From: Sulfuritalea sp.
Lineage (GTDB): Bacteria > Pseudomonadota > Gammaproteobacteria > Burkholderiales > Rhodocyclaceae
Assembly: GCF_017302275.1 (NCBI RefSeq)
Contig: NZ_JAFLDR010000017.1
Coordinates: 16,670-80,669 of the forward strand
Length of the DNA: 64,000 nt
Direction of reading: 5' to 3'
A program made the position numbers and the translations under genes. The notes beneath the pieces were generated by a model. It had not been told where the DNA came from, ran no database searches, and saw only the letters and a list, made by a program, of their open reading frames with translations. Positions 3,414 to 52,693 of the stretch are shown piece by piece (position 1 is the first letter of the stretch; each line of letters begins with the position of its first letter).

Positions 3414-4409
3414 ATGAAGCTGACCAAGATCGCTACCGCCATCGGCGCCATTGCCGCGCTGTGCGCGGCGCCGCTCGCCCAGGCCTGGGAGCCCACCAAG
3501 CCCGTCGAGTTCGTCGTTCCCGCCGGTACCGGCGGCGGCGCCGACCAGATGGCGCGCTTCATCCAGGGCATCGTCACCAAGCACAAGCTGATGAAGCAGC
3601 CGATCGTGGTGGTCAACAAGTCGGGCGGTGCCGGAGCCGAGGGCTTCCTGGAAGTCAAGGGCTCGGCGGGCAACCCGCACAAGATCATCATCACCCTGTC
3701 CAACCTGTTCACCACGCCGCTGGCCACCGCGGTGCCCTTCAACTGGCGCGACCTGACGCCCGTGGCGATGCTGGCGCTGGACGAGTTCGTGCTCTGGGTG
3801 AATGCAGAATCGCCGCACAAGACCGCCAAGGATTATGTTGCCGCGATCAAGATGGGCGCCGACAACAAGTTCAAGATGGCCGGCACCGGCGCCAAGCAGG
3901 AAGACCAGATCATCACCGTGCTGATCGAGAAGGCGGCCGGCAAGAAGATCACCTACGTGCCCTTCAAGGGCGGCGGCGATGTCGCCGTGCAACTGGTCGG
4001 CAAACACGTCGACTCGACCGTGAACAACCCGATCGAGGCCGAGGCACACTGGCGCTCGGGCAAGCTGCGCGCGCTTTGCGTGATGGATGGCGCCCCTCTG
4101 CCCTACAAGAACAAGGTCACCGCAACCCAGTCCTGGGCCGACATTCCCACCTGCAAGTCTGCCGGCATCGACGCCGAGTACCTGATGCTGCGCGGCATCT
4201 TCATGACGCCGGGCGCGACGCCCGACCAGGTCGCCTACTACGTCGACCTGTTCAAGAAGCTGCGCGAGTTGCCGGAGTGGAAGGAGTTCATGGAGAAGGG
4301 TGCCTTCAACCAGACCTTCATGGCCGGCAAGGAATATGCCGACTGGGTGGCCAGGGCCGAGGCCCAGCACGTCGCGCTGATGAAGAGCGCGGGCTTCCTC
4401 GCCAAGTAA
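3414..4409 (+). CDS. tctC: Tripartite tricarboxylate transporter substrate-binding protein (TctC family)
   Basis: A 331-residue periplasmic protein with a clear signal peptide (MKLTKIATAIGAIAALCAAPLAQA, written here only to mark cleavage after residue 24: hydrophobic core IGAIAALCAAPLAQ). The mature protein opens WEPTKPVEFVVPAGTGGGAD, the family's ligand-binding opening, and later has VPFKGGGDVAVQLVGKHVD. It would capture a carboxylate and deliver it to the TctAB membrane complex. GAGGAGAAAGCC before the ATG is a good ribosome binding site. It sits 46 bp after the CoA ligase and 4 bp before tctB. TctC paralogs are numerous in betaproteobacteria, so the ligand cannot be predicted. Confidence 0.9.
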   Translation: MKLTKIATAIGAIAALCAAPLAQAWEPTKPVEFVVPAGTGGGADQMARFIQGIVTKHKLMKQPIVVVNKSGGAGAEGFLEVKGSAGNPHKIIITLSNLFTTPLATAVPFNWRDLTPVAMLALDEFVLWVNAESPHKTAKDYVAAIKMGADNKFKMAGTGAKQEDQIITVLIEKAAGKKITYVPFKGGGDVAVQLVGKHVDSTVNNPIEAEAHWRSGKLRALCVMDGAPLPYKNKVTATQSWADIPTCKSAGIDAEYLMLRGIFMTPGATPDQVAYYVDLFKKLRELPEWKEFMEKGAFNQTFMAGKEYADWVARAEAQHVALMKSAGFLAK

Positions 4410-4413
4410 GCCG

Positions 4414-4914
4414 GTGTCGGACCAGGAACAGGGAGCCGGCCTCAACCGGCGCATCCCCGAGGCGGGAGTGGCGGCGCTGCTCCTCGCCGCCGGGATCATC
4501 GTGATCACGGACAGCCTGCGGGTCGGCATCGAGTGGGCCGACGACGGCCCCAAGGCCGGCTATTTCCCCTTCTTCATCGGCATTCTGCTGGCCTTTTCCT
4601 CGGGCTGGACCTTGCTGCAGACGCTGCTCGGCTGGAGCCGTGAGACCAATCTGTTCTCGCAATGGAGCGAACTGCGCGACGTCGGCGCAATGCTGCTACC
4701 GACAACCGTGTTCATCGTCGCCGTGCCATTCCTCGGCCTCTATTTTCCGGGCGCGCTGCTGATCGGCTACTTCATGAAGCGCCACGGCGATTTCGGATGG
4801 GTGACCACGGTCCTGACCGCGCTGGGCGTGCCCCTCACTTTCTTCCTGATCTTCGAACGCTGGTTTCTGGTGCCGCTGGCCAAGGGCCCGATTGAAGCCT
4901 GGCTGGGGTTCTGA
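4414..4914 (+). CDS. tctB: Tripartite tricarboxylate transporter small membrane subunit (TctB family)
   Basis: A 166-residue membrane protein with four hydrophobic segments (about residues 17-31, 46-68, 89-117 and 128-152), matching the TctB layout. It begins with GTG 4 bp after the tctC stop; no in-frame ATG precedes the first helix, so GTG is the likely start. TctB is the small partner of the large TctA channel in these secondary transporters. The gene ends 1 bp before tctA, so the two are translationally coupled. Confidence 0.88.
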   Translation: MSDQEQGAGLNRRIPEAGVAALLLAAGIIVITDSLRVGIEWADDGPKAGYFPFFIGILLAFSSGWTLLQTLLGWSRETNLFSQWSELRDVGAMLLPTTVFIVAVPFLGLYFPGALLIGYFMKRHGDFGWVTTVLTALGVPLTFFLIFERWFLVPLAKGPIEAWLGF

Positions 4915-10538: not shown

Positions 10539-11620
10539 AGCTAGCCATCGTGCGCCAGAAGTACACGCCCTTCGGCGGCGCCGAAAGATTTGTTGCGCGT
10601 GCGCTGGATGCCTTGCGGGCGCGGGGCGTCGATGTCAGCATCATCGCCCGGCAGTGGCAGGGCGAGGCGCCGGGCATCCGTGTCGATCCGTTCTTTATCG
10701 GACGTACCTGGCGCGATGCCGGTTTCGCCCGCGGCGTGCGGCGCCTGATCGCCGAGCGGCGCTTCGGGCTGGTGCAAAGCCACGAGCGCATCCCCGGCTG
10801 CGACATCTACCGCGCCGGCGACGGCGTCCATGCCACCTGGCTGGAACTGCGCGGCAAGCCGCTGGACCGCTTCGCGCCCTGGCATCGCTACACCCTGGCG
10901 GCGGAGGCGGAAATGTTCGGCCACCGGGACCTGCGGGCGGTGATCTGCAACTCGCGCATGGTCAGGGACGACATCGCGCGCCGCTTCGGACTTGCCGACG
11001 AGAAGCTACAGGTAATCTACAACGGGGTCGACCTCGACGCCTTCCATCCGCGCCTGCGCGAGGAGCAGGGGCGGGCGTTGCGCGCCAAGACCGGCGTCAT
11101 CGGCGCGACGCCGGTGATGCTTTTCGTCGGTTCCGGCTATGAACGCAAGGGCCTGCCGACCCTGTTGCGTGCCATGGCGGGCATGCAGCGGCGAGACGCG
11201 CGGCTGTGGGTGGTCGGCCGCGACAGGCAGGAAATGCTGATGCGCAAGCTGGCGCAGACGCTGGACATCGATGATCGTGTCATGTTCCTCGGCGCGCAGA
11301 CGGACGTGCGGCCGTTCTATGGCGCGGCCGACCTGTTCGCGCTGCCGACGCGCTACGACCCGTTTCCCAATGCCGCGCTGGAGGCGCTGGCTTGCGGCCT
11401 GCCGCTGGTCACCACGACGACCTGCGGCGCCGCGGAACTGGTGACGGAGGCGAATGGCGCGGTGGTCGCGGCGGGCGACGCGGCGGCGCTGGCGGCCAGC
11501 CTCGATCACCTGTGCGGGCGCGCCCCCCTGATGCGCGATGCCGCGCGCGCCAGCGTCGCCCATCTCGAACTGACGACGATGGCGGCGCAGCTGATGGCGC
11601 TCTATTCGCGGCTGGTGTAA
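10535..11620 (+). CDS. Glycosyltransferase family 4, WaaG-like
   Basis: A 361-residue GT4 enzyme starting with GTG inside the stop codon of the heptosyltransferase gene. It opens with VKLAIVRQKYTPFGGAERFV, the opening of the WaaG (LPS core glucosyltransferase I) group, and has FVGSGYERKGLPTLLRAM, the donor-site region TRYDPFPNAALEALACGLP with the EX7E glutamates, and TTTTCGAAEL. It most likely adds the first core hexose after the heptoses. The gene ends tail-to-tail with the - strand operon, overlapping its last gene by 19 bp. Confidence 0.87.
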   Translation: MKLAIVRQKYTPFGGAERFVARALDALRARGVDVSIIARQWQGEAPGIRVDPFFIGRTWRDAGFARGVRRLIAERRFGLVQSHERIPGCDIYRAGDGVHATWLELRGKPLDRFAPWHRYTLAAEAEMFGHRDLRAVICNSRMVRDDIARRFGLADEKLQVIYNGVDLDAFHPRLREEQGRALRAKTGVIGATPVMLFVGSGYERKGLPTLLRAMAGMQRRDARLWVVGRDRQEMLMRKLAQTLDIDDRVMFLGAQTDVRPFYGAADLFALPTRYDPFPNAALEALACGLPLVTTTTCGAAELVTEANGAVVAAGDAAALAASLDHLCGRAPLMRDAARASVAHLELTTMAAQLMALYSRLV

Positions 11621-12741
11621 GGCCGGGCGTCGGCCACGATAGGTCGCAGGCGCTCGACGAAGGCCTTGAAGGAAAAGCGCGCAAGGTGGGCCTGCGCCAG
11701 TTCGGGTTGCGGGCGCGCACGGCCGGCGAGCAATTCGTCGAGCAGCCGGGCGAAATCCGCGCCGGCATCGAGGCGCGGATCGCGGTAGAGGAAGCCGGTC
11801 GTGCCATCCAGCACGGTTTCGGTGAAGGGCGGCGCATCCACGGCGATCACCGGCGTGCCGCAAGCCTGCGCCTCGATCACGTTGAGGCCCAGCGCCTCCT
11901 TTTCGGGCAGCCCGGCGAGCAGGTAATCGAGTTGCCGGTAAATGCTGCCGACATCCCCCTGCTGGCCCCAGAAGCGCACCTGGCCGGGCGGCAGCGCGGC
12001 GAGCGCGCGGTCGAGGTCGCGCACCGAGGCGTAGCCGCCGCTGCCGAAGATTTCCAGGTTCACCTGCGGATGCCTGGCCAGCACCGGCGCCAGCTGCGCG
12101 AACAGTTGCGGGAACTGCTTGATCGGTGTCAGGCGCGAGACGATGCCCAGCGTCAGGCCGGCGCGGCGCTCGAAGGCGGGATGCGGGCGCAGCGCTTCGG
12201 CAACGGGTTCCAGCGCGCCGAGCAGGCGGTCGCGGCCCTTGCGGCGGTCCCAGTCATAGCGGCTGGCGCGGCGGATGGCGCAATCCCCCCCGGTGGCACG
12301 CGCGCCGAGTCCGGCGACACCCAGCAGCGGCGTGCCCCAGGCCGGCAGGCCGGCGGCCAGCAGGCCGTCGCGCACCCAGCCGGAAACCGGGTAGATCCGG
12401 TCGTGATCGGTGAAGGCGGCCGGGTCGCGTCCCTGCACCGGCATGTGGGCGATGGCACTGCGCAGGCGCCGTGGCATCGGTTGCCGCAGCGCGGCTGGCA
12501 GCGGTCCGTGCGAGAGCAGCCAGAGCGGACCCGCAGGCAAGTGGCGAGGCAGGTCGGCGATGCCGGCCACGGCGATGCGTCGGGTATCGGCGGGCAAGCC
12601 GAGCCGGTCCCAGAATCCGGCGCGCGGGTGAACCAGCAGTGTCGTCGCCACGCCGAGTTGCGACAAGGCGCGGCAAAAGAAGGTGGTGTAGACCTCGCCG
12701 CCGCCGAAATGGTTTTGGAGGTTGATTTGTACGTGCTTCAT
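11602..12741 (-). CDS. Glycosyltransferase family 4 protein
   Basis: A 379-residue GT4-type enzyme. The N-terminal glycine loop INLQNHFGGGEVYTTFF is the acceptor-side motif, and LTLGIVSRLTPIKQFPQLF plus PEKEALGLNVIEAQACGTPVI gives the nucleotide-sugar site with EX7E glutamates. It is the last gene of the large LPS operon and starts by ATGA overlap with the ligase gene. Linkage and sugar cannot be predicted. It converges with the WaaG-like gene. Confidence 0.83.
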   Translation of the reverse strand: MKHVQINLQNHFGGGEVYTTFFCRALSQLGVATTLLVHPRAGFWDRLGLPADTRRIAVAGIADLPRHLPAGPLWLLSHGPLPAALRQPMPRRLRSAIAHMPVQGRDPAAFTDHDRIYPVSGWVRDGLLAAGLPAWGTPLLGVAGLGARATGGDCAIRRASRYDWDRRKGRDRLLGALEPVAEALRPHPAFERRAGLTLGIVSRLTPIKQFPQLFAQLAPVLARHPQVNLEIFGSGGYASVRDLDRALAALPPGQVRFWGQQGDVGSIYRQLDYLLAGLPEKEALGLNVIEAQACGTPVIAVDAPPFTETVLDGTTGFLYRDPRLDAGADFARLLDELLAGRARPQPELAQAHLARFSFKAFVERLRPIVADARPYTSRE

Positions 12742-45830: not shown

Positions 45831-47657
45831 TTACAGTCCGAGCGCGGTGGCGATTTCCCGTCGTGCTTCGTCGATTGCCCGTTCCAGGCCGCGCAACTCC
45901 GGAACGCCGGCGGGCGGGTCGTTCAACGCGGTTTCCAGCGCCGAGGCCCTGAGTTGGAGTTCGTTCAGCCCCAGCGTGCCGGCCCGGCTCTTGAAGGTAT
46001 GGGCCATCCGGGAGGCGAGCTCGGTCCGCCCGGCCGCCATGGCGCGACGGATTTCCGGTGCCACGGACGGACTTTCCTCCACGAATTTCGTCAGCCAGTA
46101 GCGATAGCGCTGCTCGTCGCCGAAAAAGCGGGTGAGCGCCGCCGCCGTGTCCACGCCGCGTATCGCCGGCAGCGTGGGCCGTACCGGCGTGGGTGCGGGC
46201 GCGGGTTCGGCTGGCGCAGGGGTTCCCGCCGCCCGGTGTTCGGGCAGCCATTTGGCCAGCATCCGGTAAAAGTCGTTGGCATCAAAGGGCTTGCAGACGT
46301 GGTCGTTCATCCCGGCGTCGGTGCTGATGCGCTTCTCGTGGGCGAGGACGTGCGCTGTCATGGCAACAATCGGCAAGCGGTCGAAGCCGGGCCAGGTGCG
46401 TATCAGGCGTGTGGCCGACAGGCCGTCGAGGACCGGCATCTGGATGTCCATCAGCACCAGGTCGAAACGGCCCGCGTCGGATTCGCCGAGGATTTCGACC
46501 GCTTCCTGGCCGTTGCATGCGGTGCGCGGCGCGATGCCGACGGCTTGCAGCAGCTCAACGGCGATTTCCATGTTCATTGCATCGTCTTCGACGACCAGCA
46601 CGCTTGCTTGCGCGACATGCAGATCCGGCGGTGAGATAGCCTGGCCAGGTTCGTCTTCAGGCGGGTCGGAGTCCATACCGAGGCCAAGCCGGATGGCAAG
46701 GCAAAAGTTGCTGCCGACGCCCTCCCGGCTGTCGACGTCTATCCTGCCATCCATCATTTCCGCGAGGTGCTGGCTGAGCGCAAGGCCAAGGCCGGTGCCG
46801 CCGAATTTCCGCGTCATCGAGACGTCGGTTTGCGCGAAGGGCTGGAACAGGCCACCGATGTCGGCGGCCCGGATGCCGACGCCGGTGTCGGCGACGCTCA
46901 TGACGAGGCGTATCGAATCCGCCGCCCGCGTCTGGGTGGAAACGTGGACGTCAACCCGGCCTGTCGGAGTGAATTTAATGGCGTTGCCGATCAGGTTGAG
47001 CAGGATCTGCTCGATCCGCAGGGGATCACCCGCCAGGCGGTCGGGAACATCGTCGTCAATGCTGAATTCCAGCAGGAGCCCCTTGGACTCCGCCTTGTTC
47101 GCCATCAGGCCTTCGGCATGCCGGATCATGCTGCGCAGGCTGAAGGGAATTGTCTCGATCTCCATGCGTCCGGCGACGATCTTCGACAGGTCGAGCAGGT
47201 CGTTGATGATCCGCGACAGGTGCTTGCCGGCCTTGCCGATCTTCTCGAGGTAGTCGCGCTGCGCCGGGTTCTCGCAGCGACCGAGGGCCAGCGCCGACAA
47301 GCCGATGACAGCGCCCAGCGGGGTGCGCAGTTCGTGGCTGACGTTGGCGACGAAGGCGTCCTTTGCCTTGTCGGCGATTTGTGCCGCTTCCAGCGCGCTG
47401 GTCAGCTGAACGGTACGTTCCCGCACCAGTTGTTCCAGCCGTACCTGCTGTTCCTGAAGGTGTCTTTCGGCGAGCTTGTGCTTCCCGATGTCGCGCATTG
47501 CCGCGCCCAGCGCGGCCCGCTTTGTCTGGCGCACGCCCATCCGGCGCAAGGCGTGGGCGCCGAGGTAGGCGGCCTGTCTTGCGGCCCGCGGGCTTCCCTT
47601 GGGTACTTGCCGCGACAGGGGGAGGGCTTTTCGAGTAGCCGGGATTCTGGGTGCCAT
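45831..47657 (-). CDS. Hybrid histidine kinase with receiver and HPt domains, no recognisable sensor
   Basis: A 608-residue (from ATG 47657) hybrid kinase. A coiled coil (HLQEQQVRLEQLVRERT) leads to the dimerisation helix FVANVSHELRTPLG with His108. A HATPase domain (NLIGNAIKFTPTG; GGTGLGLALSQHLAEMM), a receiver (LVVEDDAMN; FDLVLMDIQMPVLDG) and a C-terminal HPt domain (MAHTFKSRAGTLG) follow. The first ~50 residues are basic and do not resemble a sensor; GAAMRDIGKHKLAE looks like the tail of a lost PAS domain. A TTG at 47741 is an alternative start. It is divergent from the autoinducer synthase over ~316 bp and could join that signalling path. Confidence 0.82.
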   Translation of the reverse strand: MAPRIPATRKALPLSRQVPKGSPRAARQAAYLGAHALRRMGVRQTKRAALGAAMRDIGKHKLAERHLQEQQVRLEQLVRERTVQLTSALEAAQIADKAKDAFVANVSHELRTPLGAVIGLSALALGRCENPAQRDYLEKIGKAGKHLSRIINDLLDLSKIVAGRMEIETIPFSLRSMIRHAEGLMANKAESKGLLLEFSIDDDVPDRLAGDPLRIEQILLNLIGNAIKFTPTGRVDVHVSTQTRAADSIRLVMSVADTGVGIRAADIGGLFQPFAQTDVSMTRKFGGTGLGLALSQHLAEMMDGRIDVDSREGVGSNFCLAIRLGLGMDSDPPEDEPGQAISPPDLHVAQASVLVVEDDAMNMEIAVELLQAVGIAPRTACNGQEAVEILGESDAGRFDLVLMDIQMPVLDGLSATRLIRTWPGFDRLPIVAMTAHVLAHEKRISTDAGMNDHVCKPFDANDFYRMLAKWLPEHRAAGTPAPAEPAPAPTPVRPTLPAIRGVDTAAALTRFFGDEQRYRYWLTKFVEESPSVAPEIRRAMAAGRTELASRMAHTFKSRAGTLGLNELQLRASALETALNDPPAGVPELRGLERAIDEARREIATALGL

Positions 47658-47828
47658 TGCTCGATGTCTGGGTATTGTCGGTGGAGCCTCACGCCGCTGA
47701 ACGCGTTCGGCGGCGTACCGCGCATCGTTTCCCGCCAACAAATCCGGCGCGTGCGATGGAATTCGCGGCAGTCCGCCAACCCGAGCCTAGGCCAAAGCGG
47801 GACAAATTCCTACTGACAGAAATGACAG

Positions 47829-47897
47829 GTTTTTTGGCAAAAAAGCGATTTTTTGTGAAAACGAGGGCCTTTGTGGCACGAAAGGCGTGCAACCACA
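47829..47897. promoter_or_regulatory. AT-rich control region of the autoinducer synthase gene
   Basis: Runs of T and A (GGTTTTTTGGCAAAAAAGCG, then ATTTTTTGTGAAAACG) at 47829-47863 stand out sharply and should bend the DNA. They are followed by an inverted repeat TGTGGCACG (47872-47880) ... CGTG-CAA-CCACA (47886-47897), centred 90 bp before the synthase start. This is the likely promoter/operator for the divergent kinase and synthase; exact -35/-10 boxes are not clear. Confidence 0.5.
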
Positions 47898-47973
47898 GGT
47901 CCGTCCGTTTGGAACACAATGAAATGCGTAGCCCCGTTCGTATCGAAAACCTTGCCAGAAAGGACTCCTGATC

Positions 47974-49272
47974 ATGAAAACCAAAGTAACCAGCCTTCGT
48001 CCCGTGCCCCAGTTTCGTGCCCCCGACCTCGCGGACTTCGCCGCCTTGCGGGTGGAAAAGTATTATCGCGAGCGGGTACGCGATACTTGGGCTGGCGGCC
48101 ATATCATGCGCGGCCGTCAGCCCGGCACGGATGCCTTGCAGCTTTGCAGCAACGATTACCTGGCGCTGGCCAAACACCCGCACATCTTGCGGGCGATGAG
48201 CGAAAGCATCCAGCGCGATGGAAACGGCCTGCTGATGTCCGGGATATTCGTCCACGGCGCCTGCCCGCACACCGATTTCGAGCAGCGCCTGGCCGAATTC
48301 ATGCAGGCCGAGGCCGGCGTGCTCTGCCAGTCGGGTTACAGCGCCAATACGGGCCTGATCCAGGTGATCGCCAGCGAACAGACCCCGGTCTATGCCGACA
48401 TGATGGCGCACATGTCCCTGTGGGAAGGCATCAGGCTTGCGGGGGCCAAACCGATCACGGTGTTCCACAACGAAGTCGAGCACCTTGAACGGCAGATCCT
48501 TCGCCACGGCCCGGGCGTCGTCGTGGTCGATTCGATCTACAGCACCACGGGCAGTATCGCCCCGCTGAGCAAGATCGTGGAAATTTGCGAAGCGCAGGGC
48601 TGCATCCTGGTCGCCGACGAATCCCATTCCCTGGGCACCCACGGACCGAACGGCGAAGGCCTGGTGGTGGAACTCGGCCTGGCCGAGCGCGTCCATTTCC
48701 GTACCGCCAGCCTGGCCAAGGCCTTCGCCGGACGCGCCGGATTCGTCACCTGCTCGCGGCGCTTCGCCGAGTACTTCAAGAGCGAGTCGAATCCCGCGAT
48801 TTTCAGCTCCACGCTGTTGCCGCACGACATTCGCGGCCTCGCTGCCACGCTCGGCGTGGTACGCCAGGAGGGCTGGCGTCGCGACCGCCTGCGGGCCAAT
48901 GCGGCGTATTTGCGCACCGAGCTCGACGCGCTGGGTTACAACCTCAACGACAGCGAATGCCAGATCGTTTCGCTGGAATCGGGCAGCGAACAGAACACCA
49001 TCGCCCTGCGCGACGCGCTCGAGTCGCGCGGCATCTTCGGTGCGATCTTCTGCGCGCCGGCCACCCCCAAGAGCCGCTCGCTGATGCGCTTCTCGGTACA
49101 TGCGGCGTTGACCGACGACGAGTTGGCGCGCATCGTCGCGGTTTGCGGCGAAATCCGCGACGAACTTGGCGTCGCGTCATGGGCTTCGACGCGCCGCAAG
49201 CTGCGAGGAAAAGCCGCCAATGCCGGGGTGGTTGAGGCGGGCCATGCGCCGCCGCAGGTCGCCGCGGCGTGA
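47974..49272 (+). CDS. lqsA: Alpha-hydroxyketone autoinducer synthase, CqsA/LqsA family
   Basis: A 432-residue PLP-dependent enzyme of the alpha-oxoamine synthase family. LQLCSNDYLALAKHPHI, SGIFVHGACPHTDFEQRL, ILVADESHSLGTHG (Asp215, His218) and ASLAKAFAGRAGFVTC with the PLP lysine (Lys249) follow the CqsA/LqsA pattern rather than that of BioF or Kbl. CqsA joins an amino acid or SAM to an acyl-CoA to give CAI-1/LAI-1 type hydroxyketones. There is a C-terminal tail of ~40 residues beyond the usual length. AAGGA precedes the ATG. An LqsR-like and an LqsS-like gene lie tail-to-tail, 18 bp away. Confidence 0.85.
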   Translation: MKTKVTSLRPVPQFRAPDLADFAALRVEKYYRERVRDTWAGGHIMRGRQPGTDALQLCSNDYLALAKHPHILRAMSESIQRDGNGLLMSGIFVHGACPHTDFEQRLAEFMQAEAGVLCQSGYSANTGLIQVIASEQTPVYADMMAHMSLWEGIRLAGAKPITVFHNEVEHLERQILRHGPGVVVVDSIYSTTGSIAPLSKIVEICEAQGCILVADESHSLGTHGPNGEGLVVELGLAERVHFRTASLAKAFAGRAGFVTCSRRFAEYFKSESNPAIFSSTLLPHDIRGLAATLGVVRQEGWRRDRLRANAAYLRTELDALGYNLNDSECQIVSLESGSEQNTIALRDALESRGIFGAIFCAPATPKSRSLMRFSVHAALTDDELARIVAVCGEIRDELGVASWASTRRKLRGKAANAGVVEAGHAPPQVAAA

Positions 49273-49290
49273 TCGCGTGGCCGCCGGGGC

Positions 49291-50322
49291 TCAGGCCAAA
49301 GGCGTCAGCCCCTGGCGCGCTTCGCGATCGAGATGGTCGAGGTATTCGCTGTAGGGATAGACGTACTTGAGGTTGAAGGCACCGGGGTTCTTGACCAGCG
49401 AATAGAGGTACCAGTCCTCGCCCTTGAATTCGATCGCCGGGTGCAGGCAGGGCTGCCAGTCTTCGTAGATCGGCGAGTAGTTGCCGCCGGTCTTCCAGAA
49501 GTAGGGCAGCGAACTGCCGCTGCGCAGTTGCCGCAGCAGCTCCTCGGGCGCGTTCTGGTCGCTGGCGATCTCGTAGTGTCCCTGGATCATCTCTTCCGTC
49601 TGCACGATCAGCAGGTAAGCCGTGCCATGCATGTCGAGCATCAGGATGCCGTCCGGTGAACATGACAGGTAGTGCTCGACGATCCCCAGGCTGCCCCGGA
49701 TCTCGGCGAAGCGTTGGGCGAATCCCGGGTCGCGCAGAAATGGGTGCGAGCCAACCGCCAGCGCGTCGGAGAGCATGTGTTCGATCTGGTCGAAATGCTC
49801 CTGTTGCAGTTCGGCGATCGCCGAATTCAGCAAGTCCATGACATCGTCGTTCTGCTTGCGGATGAAGCGATCGATGATCTTCTCGTTGAAGGCACGCACG
49901 GCAACCTGCTCGTCGGCCTTGCCGGTCAGCAGGATCTTCTTGATCGCCTTGTTGCGCAGGTTGCGGCAGAACTCCAGGCCGTCGATCTCCGGCATGTCGT
50001 AGTCGACCACCACCACCGATACCTGTTCGAATCGGCGTTCGTTGTGTATTTCGCGGTGGATCAGGTCAAGGCTGACGTCGATCACGTGGCGCGTCTGGCT
50101 TTTGTCGCCACGGTGCCGGTAAAGGGAAAAGAAGCGCTCCACCAAGGGTTGCGCGGCGGTCGCGCCATTGAGCGCGACCAGTGCCGCGAAGGGTGAATGG
50201 AACAGGCGGAACGCCAGCCGCGAATCGAGCTGCAGGCTGAGGTTGGACAGGAACTGCCGGCTGTCATCGATGAAGGCGACGGTGGTCGGAAAATGGAAGG
50301 GCTGGATGGCGCGGTTTTTCAT
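49291..50322 (-). CDS. lqsR: LqsR-like response regulator with an unusual output domain
   Basis: A 343-residue protein. The receiver has an acidic pair FIDDS (Asp19-Asp20), phosphoacceptor Asp107 in VVVVDYDMPEIDG, ILLTGKADE and FIRK. A ~40-residue insertion separates beta2 from beta3 (about residues 55-97). The C-terminal half (SPDGILMLDMHGTAYLLIVQ; EDWYLYSLVKNPGAF) is not a standard DNA-binding or enzyme domain and resembles LqsR-type outputs. It overlaps the kinase stop by ATGA, so the two are made together. It probably receives phosphate from that kinase. Confidence 0.75.
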   Translation of the reverse strand: MKNRAIQPFHFPTTVAFIDDSRQFLSNLSLQLDSRLAFRLFHSPFAALVALNGATAAQPLVERFFSLYRHRGDKSQTRHVIDVSLDLIHREIHNERRFEQVSVVVVDYDMPEIDGLEFCRNLRNKAIKKILLTGKADEQVAVRAFNEKIIDRFIRKQNDDVMDLLNSAIAELQQEHFDQIEHMLSDALAVGSHPFLRDPGFAQRFAEIRGSLGIVEHYLSCSPDGILMLDMHGTAYLLIVQTEEMIQGHYEIASDQNAPEELLRQLRSGSSLPYFWKTGGNYSPIYEDWQPCLHPAIEFKGEDWYLYSLVKNPGAFNLKYVYPYSEYLDHLDREARQGLTPLA

Positions 50323-51632
50323 GATCGAGGGAAGCTCAGGACGAATTCGGTGAAGTCACCATGAACGGAGGTGCACTCGATGGTACCGCCGAACGAGGTC
50401 ATCACGTCGCGACAGAAGGCCAGGCCAATGCCGGCGCCGAGCACGCTGTCGTCGTGCCCGGGCGAAGTATAGAAGCGCCGGAAGATGTGGGGCAACATGT
50501 CCGGTGGAATGCCGTCGCCGGTGTCGCGCACCGTGAGCCGGTTCCCGGAAGGAGAGGCGTCGAGCCGGATCGAGACCTCGCCCTTGCCGGCCTTGGCGAT
50601 GTGGCGCAGGGCATTCTTGATCAGGTTGAACAGCACGTGCACCATCAGCAGTTCAGAGCCGCGAAACGGGAAGTCCCCCGTGCCATCGCGGAACACCACC
50701 GCCCTCTCTTCCTCGGAAAACGGATAGCGGTGCATGGCGACATCGACGCAGGCGGCCATCGAGCATTGCTGGAAGTCCTGTTCGACCGCGCCGGTGACCC
50801 TGGCGTTGACCAGCAGCATGTCGATGATGGCATTCGAGTGACGAGCCTCCGAATCGATGCGTGCCAGCACGACCTTCAACGAATCGACGTGAGTTGCGCG
50901 GATCGGGCTGACCGGCAGGCCGTTGGCTTGCGCCATTTCATGGGCCTCGATCAGCGCGGGCAGGTAATGGGCCAGGCCCGCGGCGCCGGCGCGGATGCTG
51001 AGCAGCGGCGTGCGCAGTTCGTGGGCAATGCTTCCGGCCGTCGCCAGCATCGCGCGCTCCTGCTCGATGCGGATGCGCTCGCTGTCGTAGTTGGCGACGG
51101 CGCCCCCGGCTACCGCGAACAGCGCGATCGCAAGGTAGTCCCAGCGCTCGAAGGCGGCCAGCGGGACGTCGCTGGTCAGCGCGTAGGCGAGGACGGCGAG
51201 GCTGCTGCCCAGCACGAACTGCCCGATCAGCGTGACCCAGTCGAGCAGCAGGATCATGACGAATACCGCCACCAGCGCCGATCCGATCCAGACGTCGGCG
51301 CCATAATTTTTCAGCAGCATGTAGGTGAAGAAAAACGGCAGCGAATACAGAAGGGAGAAATACCAGTAATAGGGCAGCCGGGACTTGAGCCAGCCTGGCC
51401 AGTGCTTGCTGAACAGCATGGGCACGAAGAGTGCCGTTCCGATCAGGCGCAGGGTCAGGCTTTCGTAGCGCTGGGGGAAGATGAACGTCCAGACGTACCA
51501 GTAGAGTGGGAAGGCGACGATCGCGAGGATGGCGAAAGCGGTCAGGCGCCGCTCGATATAGACGACATTGCGCAGCGCCGGCTCCAGCAGTCGGGCGACC
51601 AACTGCTTCAGGAAGGGTACGAGGACGGTCAT
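50319..51632 (-). CDS. lqsS: Six-TM sensor histidine kinase, LqsS/CqsS-like
   Basis: A 437-residue kinase (from ATG 51632). Six hydrophobic segments (about 32-51, 61-73, 90-107, 113-131, 134-152, 164-181) form the membrane sensor without a periplasmic domain, as in CqsS/LqsS receptors for hydroxyketones. Then come SIAHELRTPLLSIRAG with His204, a HATPase domain with NLIKNALRHIAKAG, DTGDGIPPDMLPHIF and GAGIGLAFC. No receiver is attached, as in LqsS. An in-frame ATG at 51677 is an alternative start. It is coupled to lqsR downstream and divergent from luxR. Confidence 0.8.
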   Translation of the reverse strand: MTVLVPFLKQLVARLLEPALRNVVYIERRLTAFAILAIVAFPLYWYVWTFIFPQRYESLTLRLIGTALFVPMLFSKHWPGWLKSRLPYYWYFSLLYSLPFFFTYMLLKNYGADVWIGSALVAVFVMILLLDWVTLIGQFVLGSSLAVLAYALTSDVPLAAFERWDYLAIALFAVAGGAVANYDSERIRIEQERAMLATAGSIAHELRTPLLSIRAGAAGLAHYLPALIEAHEMAQANGLPVSPIRATHVDSLKVVLARIDSEARHSNAIIDMLLVNARVTGAVEQDFQQCSMAACVDVAMHRYPFSEEERAVVFRDGTGDFPFRGSELLMVHVLFNLIKNALRHIAKAGKGEVSIRLDASPSGNRLTVRDTGDGIPPDMLPHIFRRFYTSPGHDDSVLGAGIGLAFCRDVMTSFGGTIECTSVHGDFTEFVLSFPRS

Positions 51633-51958
51633 CGCTTTGGTCGGCTCAACTTGGGCACCGCGTGGCACGCGCGGCATGCCCGGCCGAATAGGCAGGCGGT
51701 CTGGATAGGGAAGACATGGTCATGTGATCGGCGAAGTTTCCCAAAAATGTCATACAAGCGCTGCCGATGCAAGCGGTCCGTGCCCGGCTGCGCGTGAAAT
51801 CCCCTTGCACTGCCGGTTCGCGGGAGGCCTTGTGCGAGGTGGGCGGGATGATTGCGCGGCGAAAATGTCATGATCGTGAATGCTTCGCCTTGACAAGGCA
51901 ATGTTGCGCCATTACAAAGCCTGTTCTTCCTGTCTTGTCGAGTCTCGCCGACCCCGTC
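51633..51958. promoter_or_regulatory. Divergent lqsS-luxR control region with repeated elements
   Basis: 326 bp without a convincing gene. It contains an inverted repeat ACATG-GT-CATGT (51714-51725) and the direct repeat AAAATGTCAT twice (51744-51753 and 51862-51871, 118 bp apart). These lie where a regulator could control both genes; the luxR promoter is listed separately. No full 20-bp lux box was seen. Confidence 0.45.
51890..51918 (+). promoter_or_regulatory. Predicted sigma-70 promoter of the luxR gene
   Basis: TTGACA (51890-51895), 17-bp spacer, TACAAA (51913-51918). The -35 box is perfect and the -10 keeps four of six bases. The transcript would start about 34 nt before the ATG. The second AAAATGTCAT repeat ends 18 bp before the -35 box. 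Confidence 0.65.
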
Positions 51959-52693
51959 ATGAGTGAATCTCCGTCCGACCGTCCGCATCGGGAATCCGGC
52001 TTGCTGTTGTATTCCGGCAACGCGCGGCGCGATTTCTTCGACGGTGCGGTGCTCGGTGCGCGCAACCTGGGCTTCGAGTATTGCGGTTACCTGATCGGCC
52101 TGCCGGTGTCGGCCACCGAGTGGCGCTTCGTGATGACCAGCAATTTTCCGCGCGCGTGGCAGCGGCGCTACCTCCGGCGCGGTTATCACTCCATCGATCC
52201 CACGGTCGAGTACGCCAAGACCGGCGTCGAGCCGATCACATGGTCGCGCGAGTTGTTCGCCACCGAGCGTCTGCAGGATCTTTCGCGGGATGCCGACGCC
52301 ATCGGTTTCAATCACGGCTGGACCCAGCCTTTGCGCGATGCTCGTGGCAGGTTCGGCGTGCTGACGCTGGCACGTGGCAGCACGCCGATCGAAGCGGACG
52401 AGTTGCGTGACAAGCTGCCGATGATGCAATGGCTGGCGCGGGTGGTCCATGACCGGCTGTTCGCCGAATTCATGGCCTGGCAGCGCAATGAAACCATCAG
52501 CCGGCTGACGGAGCGCGAACTGGCTTGCCTGCGACTCGCCGCCGCCGGCGGCACGGCCGGCGAGATCTCTGCGGCGACCGGCGTCGCCGAGCGCACGGTG
52601 AACTTCCACATGGCCAACGCGATCGACAAGCTCGGCGCGGTCAACAAGACGCATGCCGTGGCGCTGGCGCTGCGGCTGGGGCTTTTCGCCTAG
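51959..52693 (+). CDS. LuxR-type quorum-sensing regulator (LuxR solo)
   Basis: A 244-residue regulator. The N-terminal autoinducer-binding domain keeps the key pocket residues in canonical spacing: Trp67 and Tyr71 (AWQRRYL), Asp80-Pro81 (SIDPTVEY), Trp95 (ITWS) and the later glycine (NHGWTQPL). This predicts binding of an acyl-homoserine lactone. The C-terminal GerE helix-turn-helix is LTERELACLRLAAAGGTAGE through VAERTVNFHMANAIDKLGAV. No luxI synthase is in the window. The ATG at 51959 is chosen from the predicted promoter and family length; a longer open frame upstream is unlike any LuxR. Confidence 0.85.
   Translation: MSESPSDRPHRESGLLLYSGNARRDFFDGAVLGARNLGFEYCGYLIGLPVSATEWRFVMTSNFPRAWQRRYLRRGYHSIDPTVEYAKTGVEPITWSRELFATERLQDLSRDADAIGFNHGWTQPLRDARGRFGVLTLARGSTPIEADELRDKLPMMQWLARVVHDRLFAEFMAWQRNETISRLTERELACLRLAAAGGTAGEISAATGVAERTVNFHMANAIDKLGAVNKTHAVALALRLGLFA

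Follow-up and report, generated by a model that had tools for sequence, protein, structure and literature searches.

Five signaling genes lie side by side in a 64,000-nt stretch of Sulfuritalea sp. DNA (contig NZ_JAFLDR010000017.1, positions 16,670 to 80,669), here called the window, which is part of a 4.4-Mb genome assembled in 88 contigs. All five had been proposed in a sequence-only reading of the window, and all were present in the open reading frames and in Pfam and NCBIfam searches. A hybrid histidine kinase gene (45831 to 47657, minus strand) is divergent from jqsA (47974 to 49272, plus strand), which runs toward jqsR (49291 to 50322, minus strand) and jqsS (50319 to 51677, minus strand), and a luxR gene (51959 to 52693, plus strand) is divergent from jqsS. 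The kinase most likely begins at the ATG at 47657, not at the TTG at 47741, because its M-x4-P-x2-RK-like start aligns with those of several relatives; the open frame continues to 47741 and past it. LuxR most likely begins at 51959 rather than 51767 because its homologues begin there, and jqsS probably starts near 51632. Judged by sequence, the locus is a JqsA/JqsR/JqsS (Cqs/Lqs-type) alpha-hydroxyketone signaling system, an already known kind, and the new feature is the way a LuxR solo is tied to it.

The earlier assignment of JqsA as a CqsA/LqsA-like synthase held up. JqsA scored 582.7 bits against the NCBIfam model NF005526 (alpha-hydroxyketone-type autoinducer synthase; cut-off, 428) and matched the CAI-1 synthase structure in PDB, 3hqt, with an E value of 5.9e-105. 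In a tree, 18 BioF/Kbl-like paralogues formed one clade with a support of 1.000, separate from 20 JqsA proteins; given the NF005526 score and this tree position, a BioF or Kbl identity was rejected. The pyridoxal 5′-phosphate lysine is K249, as had been read from the sequence, and the predicted product is an alpha-hydroxyketone. JqsR, a stand-alone receiver protein with a Pfam Response_reg domain and the receiver aspartate D107, matched PDB 6sy9 over residues 4 to 334, nearly its full length, with an E value of 3e-76. We take 6sy9 to be LqsR of Legionella pneumophila (the entry itself says "Response regulator"), and the match agrees with the description of JqsR as LqsR-like. No DNA-binding domain was found in JqsR in the Pfam search. 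The coupling of jqsS to jqsR by an ATGA overlap was confirmed. In JqsS, Pfam found an HATPase_c domain (3.8e-24), and the HisKA match fell short of its cut-off. JqsS had been called a six-transmembrane LqsS/CqsS-like kinase; the kinase domain and the jqs neighborhood fit this, but the helix count depends on the method. An AlphaFold2 model of moderate confidence (mean pLDDT, 72.5; pTM, 0.41) places six membrane-size helices ahead of the kinase, whereas a simple hydropathy plot shows only four windows above threshold, two of them overlapping.

The LuxR protein scored 117.7 bits for Autoind_bind and 52.6 bits for GerE. Residues W60, Y64, D73, and W88 and the glycine at TraR position 113, which we take to be the lactone and amide contacts in LasR and TraR, are kept in all nine LuxRs linked to such loci. 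With both domains found and the pocket residues conserved, the claim of a divergent LuxR with an intact acyl-homoserine lactone (AHL) pocket stands. The position equivalent to Tyr56 of LasR (presumably so in LasR numbering) is F or L in six of these nine proteins, whereas 11 of 12 other LuxRs have Y there. The pocket appears to favor an AHL-like ligand while leaving room for another, and the balance tips slightly toward an AHL as the actual ligand. A PF00765 (LuxI) search of the window's genome gave no match; the same search detected luxI in eight other genomes of the family at 67 bits or more. Among the other six jqsA-bearing genomes of the genus, four had none, G151 had a marginal match (24.4 bits; cut-off, 24), and G396 lay outside the genome draw used for this search. 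Weak partial luxI matches were found in many more genomes of the family draw, 136 in all. A putative luxR promoter, TTGACA-N17-TACAAA, lies at 51890 to 51918 (plus strand), its TTGAC being aligned in 9 of 9 loci. The -35 element falls within a short dyad, GCCTTGACAAGGC (51885 to 51897); in L010 and L012 the arms of the dyad differ yet the symmetry is kept, and the dyad of L099 and L011 is either shortened or broken in part.

The synthase was found above the cut-off in 12 genomes of a 395-genome draw from the family, and a search of the genus added G396, making 13. The genus sample comprised 31 genomes, 7 with jqsA and 24 without. The order kinase < > jqsA > < jqsR < jqsS < > luxR, whose conservation in relatives had been proposed as a check, is kept in 7 of 7 jqsA-bearing genus members, and the idea of passenger genes without a conserved order was rejected on this ground. 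The same 7 of 31 genomes carry both the synthase (at least 78% identity) and the LuxR orthologue (at least 66%); the weaker matches in the genus (E value of 0.001; 27 and 26 of the 31 genomes in all) were BioF/Kbl-like or mostly GerE-only. Each of the seven has a single Autoind_bind protein at the Pfam cut-off, the locus LuxR, and G117 alone of the other 24 has one, which belongs to another clade. In the family draw, all eight LuxR genes at 53% identity or more adjoin jqsS. Matches to LuxR at an E value of 1e-30 occurred in 18 of the 395 genomes, eight beside jqsS, eight within ∼3 kb of a strong luxI, and two beside neither. The nine locus-linked LuxRs, counting that of G396, group in a single clade (support, 1.000), and within the genus they branch in the same way as JqsA, JqsR, and JqsS.

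Outside the genus, the arrangement is partial. In G008 and G331, which represent two further genera, luxR and jqsS are divergently arranged with no kinase there, and the stretches examined in G051, G074, G105, and G290 hold jqsA-jqsR-jqsS without luxR, luxI/luxR being elsewhere in G105 and G290. G008 groups with G105 and G290 in the Jqs trees, which implies either a loss of luxR in the latter two or an independent gain in G008. No LuxR was found in the stretches examined from seven loci of other groups (five Paraburkholderia/Trinickia, Xenophilus, and Salinisphaera; best tblastn E value, 1.9). The tail-to-tail arrangement of jqsA and the receptor operon, singled out earlier, is present but not special, as it also occurs in the Paraburkholderia, Trinickia, and Xenophilus loci that lack LuxR.

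The 316-bp region between the kinase gene and jqsA is poorly conserved save for a stretch around CTGACAGAAATGACAG, a lux-box-like palindrome at 47813 to 47828 that is assigned to no strand. The pattern CTGNCA-N4-TGNCAG, chosen after the alignment had been seen, occurs without a mismatch in all seven genus loci, between positions -155 and -163 relative to jqsA, and with one mismatch in G008. In G331 the aligned place has three mismatches, and the best match, with one mismatch at -341, is chance-like. All 11 loci without LuxR have at least two mismatches. Exact copies of the strict palindrome CTGWCAGAAATGACAG number 18 in the seven jqsA/LuxR genomes (4, 4, 3, 3, 2, 1, and 1). No exact copy was found in the remaining 24, where a single one-mismatch site was seen in G399 and another in G117. 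The G399 box (L167, contig 10) has a flank resembling the sites in G305 and G360 and may be relict or derive from contamination. Similarly designed boxes adjoin luxI in G105 and G290, which supports a LuxR-type operator. A loose pattern, CTGNCANNNNTGNCAG, was rejected as a tool for finding a genome-wide regulon, as it was not specific compared to its reversed control (6 versus 3 sites in the window's genome, 5 versus 6 in G151, and 4 versus 6 in G328).

The spacing of the boxes points in one direction. Nineteen exact boxes were inspected, 18 from the genus and one from G008. In all 19, one strand has the sequence TANNNT at a distance of exactly 23 nt and at none of the other offsets between 5 and 43; on the opposite strand, it was seen at offset 16 in two and at offset 26 in one. 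These are not 19 independent events because the locus sites and some others are orthologous. In known LuxR-type activators the box lies near -42, as the 23-nt spacing would place it. At the locus, the side with the -10 element at 23 nt faces the hybrid kinase in all seven genus loci, and in the window the putative -10 element of the kinase promoter is TAGGCT (47784 to 47789, minus strand). A box with TATCAT at 23 nt faces jqsS in three of the nine LuxR-bearing loci (G305, G328, and G331, with 0, 1, and 1 mismatches; found in 0 of 500 shuffles each). In G008 the one-mismatch box, 206 bp upstream of jqsA, lacks the 23-nt spacing.

The kinase that this promoter faces has the domain order HisKA-HATPase_c-REC-Hpt. 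It had been described as sensorless, and Pfam indeed recognized no sensor domain in the window's protein, but this is not general: of the seven orthologues, PAS_4 was above the cut-off in one (G360), below it in one (G151), and not found in five, the window's included. By eye, the window's kinase retains a stretch resembling the end of a PAS domain, so the sensorless state is probably derived. Related hybrid kinases occur in 31 of 31 genus genomes, the jqsA-adjacent copy being the best match in each of the seven.

Twelve of the 19 exact boxes (L149 to L160) lie away from the kinase/jqsA promoter. L151, L153, L154, and L156 face a type I secretion ABC transporter gene, directly or after a 237-aa gene. 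Among the type I secretion ABC transporters behind a box (L151, L153, L154, L156, and L094), three have a Peptidase_C39 match. A further box in G008, with 24-nt spacing, precedes the type I transporter gene adjoining luxR. L149 faces a 162-aa lipoprotein-like gene followed by a Tle1-like phospholipase gene, L150 a 323-aa gene, and L158 a lipoprotein-like gene, and L152, L157, and L159 face genes for related small proteins (∼90 residues with a common FADG-type ending and no Pfam match). L160, the box in G008, faces a TIR-domain gene (Pfam TIR_2; about 4189 to 4668). The target of L155 is ambiguous, the box lying perhaps within an open reading frame. In G331 (L093, about 11550 to 12180), a TIR-like protein on the divergent side of jqsA was recognized by eye only.

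Among described systems, the Jqs cluster of Janthinobacterium and Duganella is similar in that it also has a synthase, a sensor kinase, and an LqsR-like regulator adjacent to one another in betaproteobacteria; it consists of jqsA, jqsS, and jqsR, with jqsA next to jqsS, and neither a LuxR nor a hybrid kinase is named in it in the available parts of its descriptions (PMC3566124 and PMC5080296). The JAI-1 motif TTGAN6/7TCAA, reported there upstream of jqsA, had no match in the 350 bp preceding jqsA at any of the 20 loci examined or anywhere in the window, and it was rejected as the regulator site here. The Legionella Lqs locus, given as lqsA, lqsR, hdeD, and lqsS in PMC3376566, shares LqsA-, LqsR-, and LqsS-like proteins with the present locus, which differs in lacking hdeD, in the jqsR/jqsS overlap, and in the built-in LuxR and hybrid kinase. 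Legionella LvbR was dropped as a parallel, as the accessible portions of the literature do not term it LuxR-type. The LuxR protein itself matched, among solved structures, QscR (3szt) and SdiA (4lfu), and it resembles SdiA/QscR-type solos in its two domains, its conserved pocket, and the lack of a detected LuxI in its genome. Unlike them, it is tied to an alpha-hydroxyketone locus and, via the boxes, to the kinase of that locus. No report of a LuxR inside a cqs, lqs, or jqs locus was found in open-licence PubMed Central literature, including the portions available of PMC3566124, PMC5080296, PMC3376566, PMC11237717, PMC13220807, and PMC10134790.

These features suggest a circuit in which JqsA would make a hydroxyketone signal and the membrane kinase JqsS would sense it, moving phosphate to or from JqsR. 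Ligand-bound LuxR would bind the palindrome and activate the promoter whose -10 element lies 23 nt from the box. Because LuxI was not found in the genome, the ligand is probably an AHL from other cells, and LuxR would thus sense an exogenous signal. In the genus, the locus promoter under LuxR would drive the hybrid kinase divergent from jqsA, and since this kinase has no recognized sensor, LuxR may provide its input by setting how much of it is made. Phosphate would then move from its REC-Hpt tail to JqsR, the point at which the two signals would converge. The same boxes also precede other genes, type I secretion transporters among them, and LuxR would accordingly have a regulon of its own as well. 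Of the new claims, regulation of the hybrid kinase by LuxR is the best supported, and we regard it as quite probable; phosphotransfer from the kinase to JqsR is a tentative proposal that falls somewhat short of an even chance. The tie between LuxR solo and hydroxyketone locus through the hybrid kinase, taken as a whole, has the odds slightly on its side. The integration of hydroxyketone and AHL signals suggested by the sequence-only reading thus gains cis-regulatory support from the conserved boxes and their spacing, but the box is oriented to the kinase and not to the synthase.

Several points weigh against this reading, which is built on sequence evidence, its phosphotransfer step being based on gene neighborhood. 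No box with the -10 spacing faces jqsA in the nine LuxR-bearing loci, and a LuxR box driving jqsA at standard spacing was therefore rejected; in the window none faces jqsS either. TAGGCT agrees with TATAAT at only three of six positions. The strict box was picked after the alignments had been seen, and the seven genus genomes, like several of its 19 sites, are not independent of one another; beyond the genus, one exact box is listed for G008 and none for G331. G399, which lacks LuxR and has 10% contamination, carries its one-mismatch box with the 23-nt spacing. In most LuxR-bearing genomes the loose pattern is no more frequent than its reversed control; its largest excess is in G074 (16 versus 0), and it is also in excess in G051 (7 versus 1), both without an Autoind_bind protein.

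This last observation would suit a different explanation, namely, that the boxes are read by another regulator that co-occurs in the same genomes. However, each of the seven genomes has LuxR as its one Autoind_bind protein, the box design matches that beside luxI in G105 and G290, and JqsR has no DNA-binding domain in Pfam, which together make this explanation very unlikely. It is also conceivable that LuxR is ligand independent or senses some other compound and is a co-inherited regulator of secretion genes, in which case the effect on the kinase would be real but would involve no signal integration. The many boxes before non-jqs genes agree with this, whereas the kinase site kept in seven of seven loci and the jqsS site in three of nine indicate that the locus itself is a target, and we consider such a role improbable.

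The ligand could also come from within. LuxR might be a second, cytosolic receptor for the hydroxyketone of the locus or its aminoketone precursor, giving one signal with two receptors. The occurrence of the genus LuxR orthologue solely with jqsA, the failure to find luxI in the window's genome, and the F or L replacing the Tyr56 equivalent in most locus-linked LuxRs all point this way, but the residues that presumably contact the lactone and amide are kept in all nine, as they are in luxI-linked LuxRs, and we think the idea unlikely. The fuller version, in which such a LuxR would re-feed the pathway by switching on the sensorless kinase, seems unlikely as well. If true, it would represent a new kind of receptor; we know of no LuxR-type receptor for a hydroxyketone.

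Hydroxyketone and AHL signaling are usually regarded as separate circuits. The reading that we favor, a LuxR solo tied to the hydroxyketone locus through the hybrid kinase, would make the parts of a hydroxyketone circuit and an AHL-type receptor one co-inherited unit, joined by conserved operator-promoter elements at the kinase gene. It suggests that two classes of signal may meet in a phosphorelay, with transcription setting the level of a kinase that lacks an evident sensor. The boxes also supply a set of candidate LuxR target promoters, several of which lie ahead of type I secretion transporter genes, and the arrangement concerns some freshwater and groundwater bacteria.

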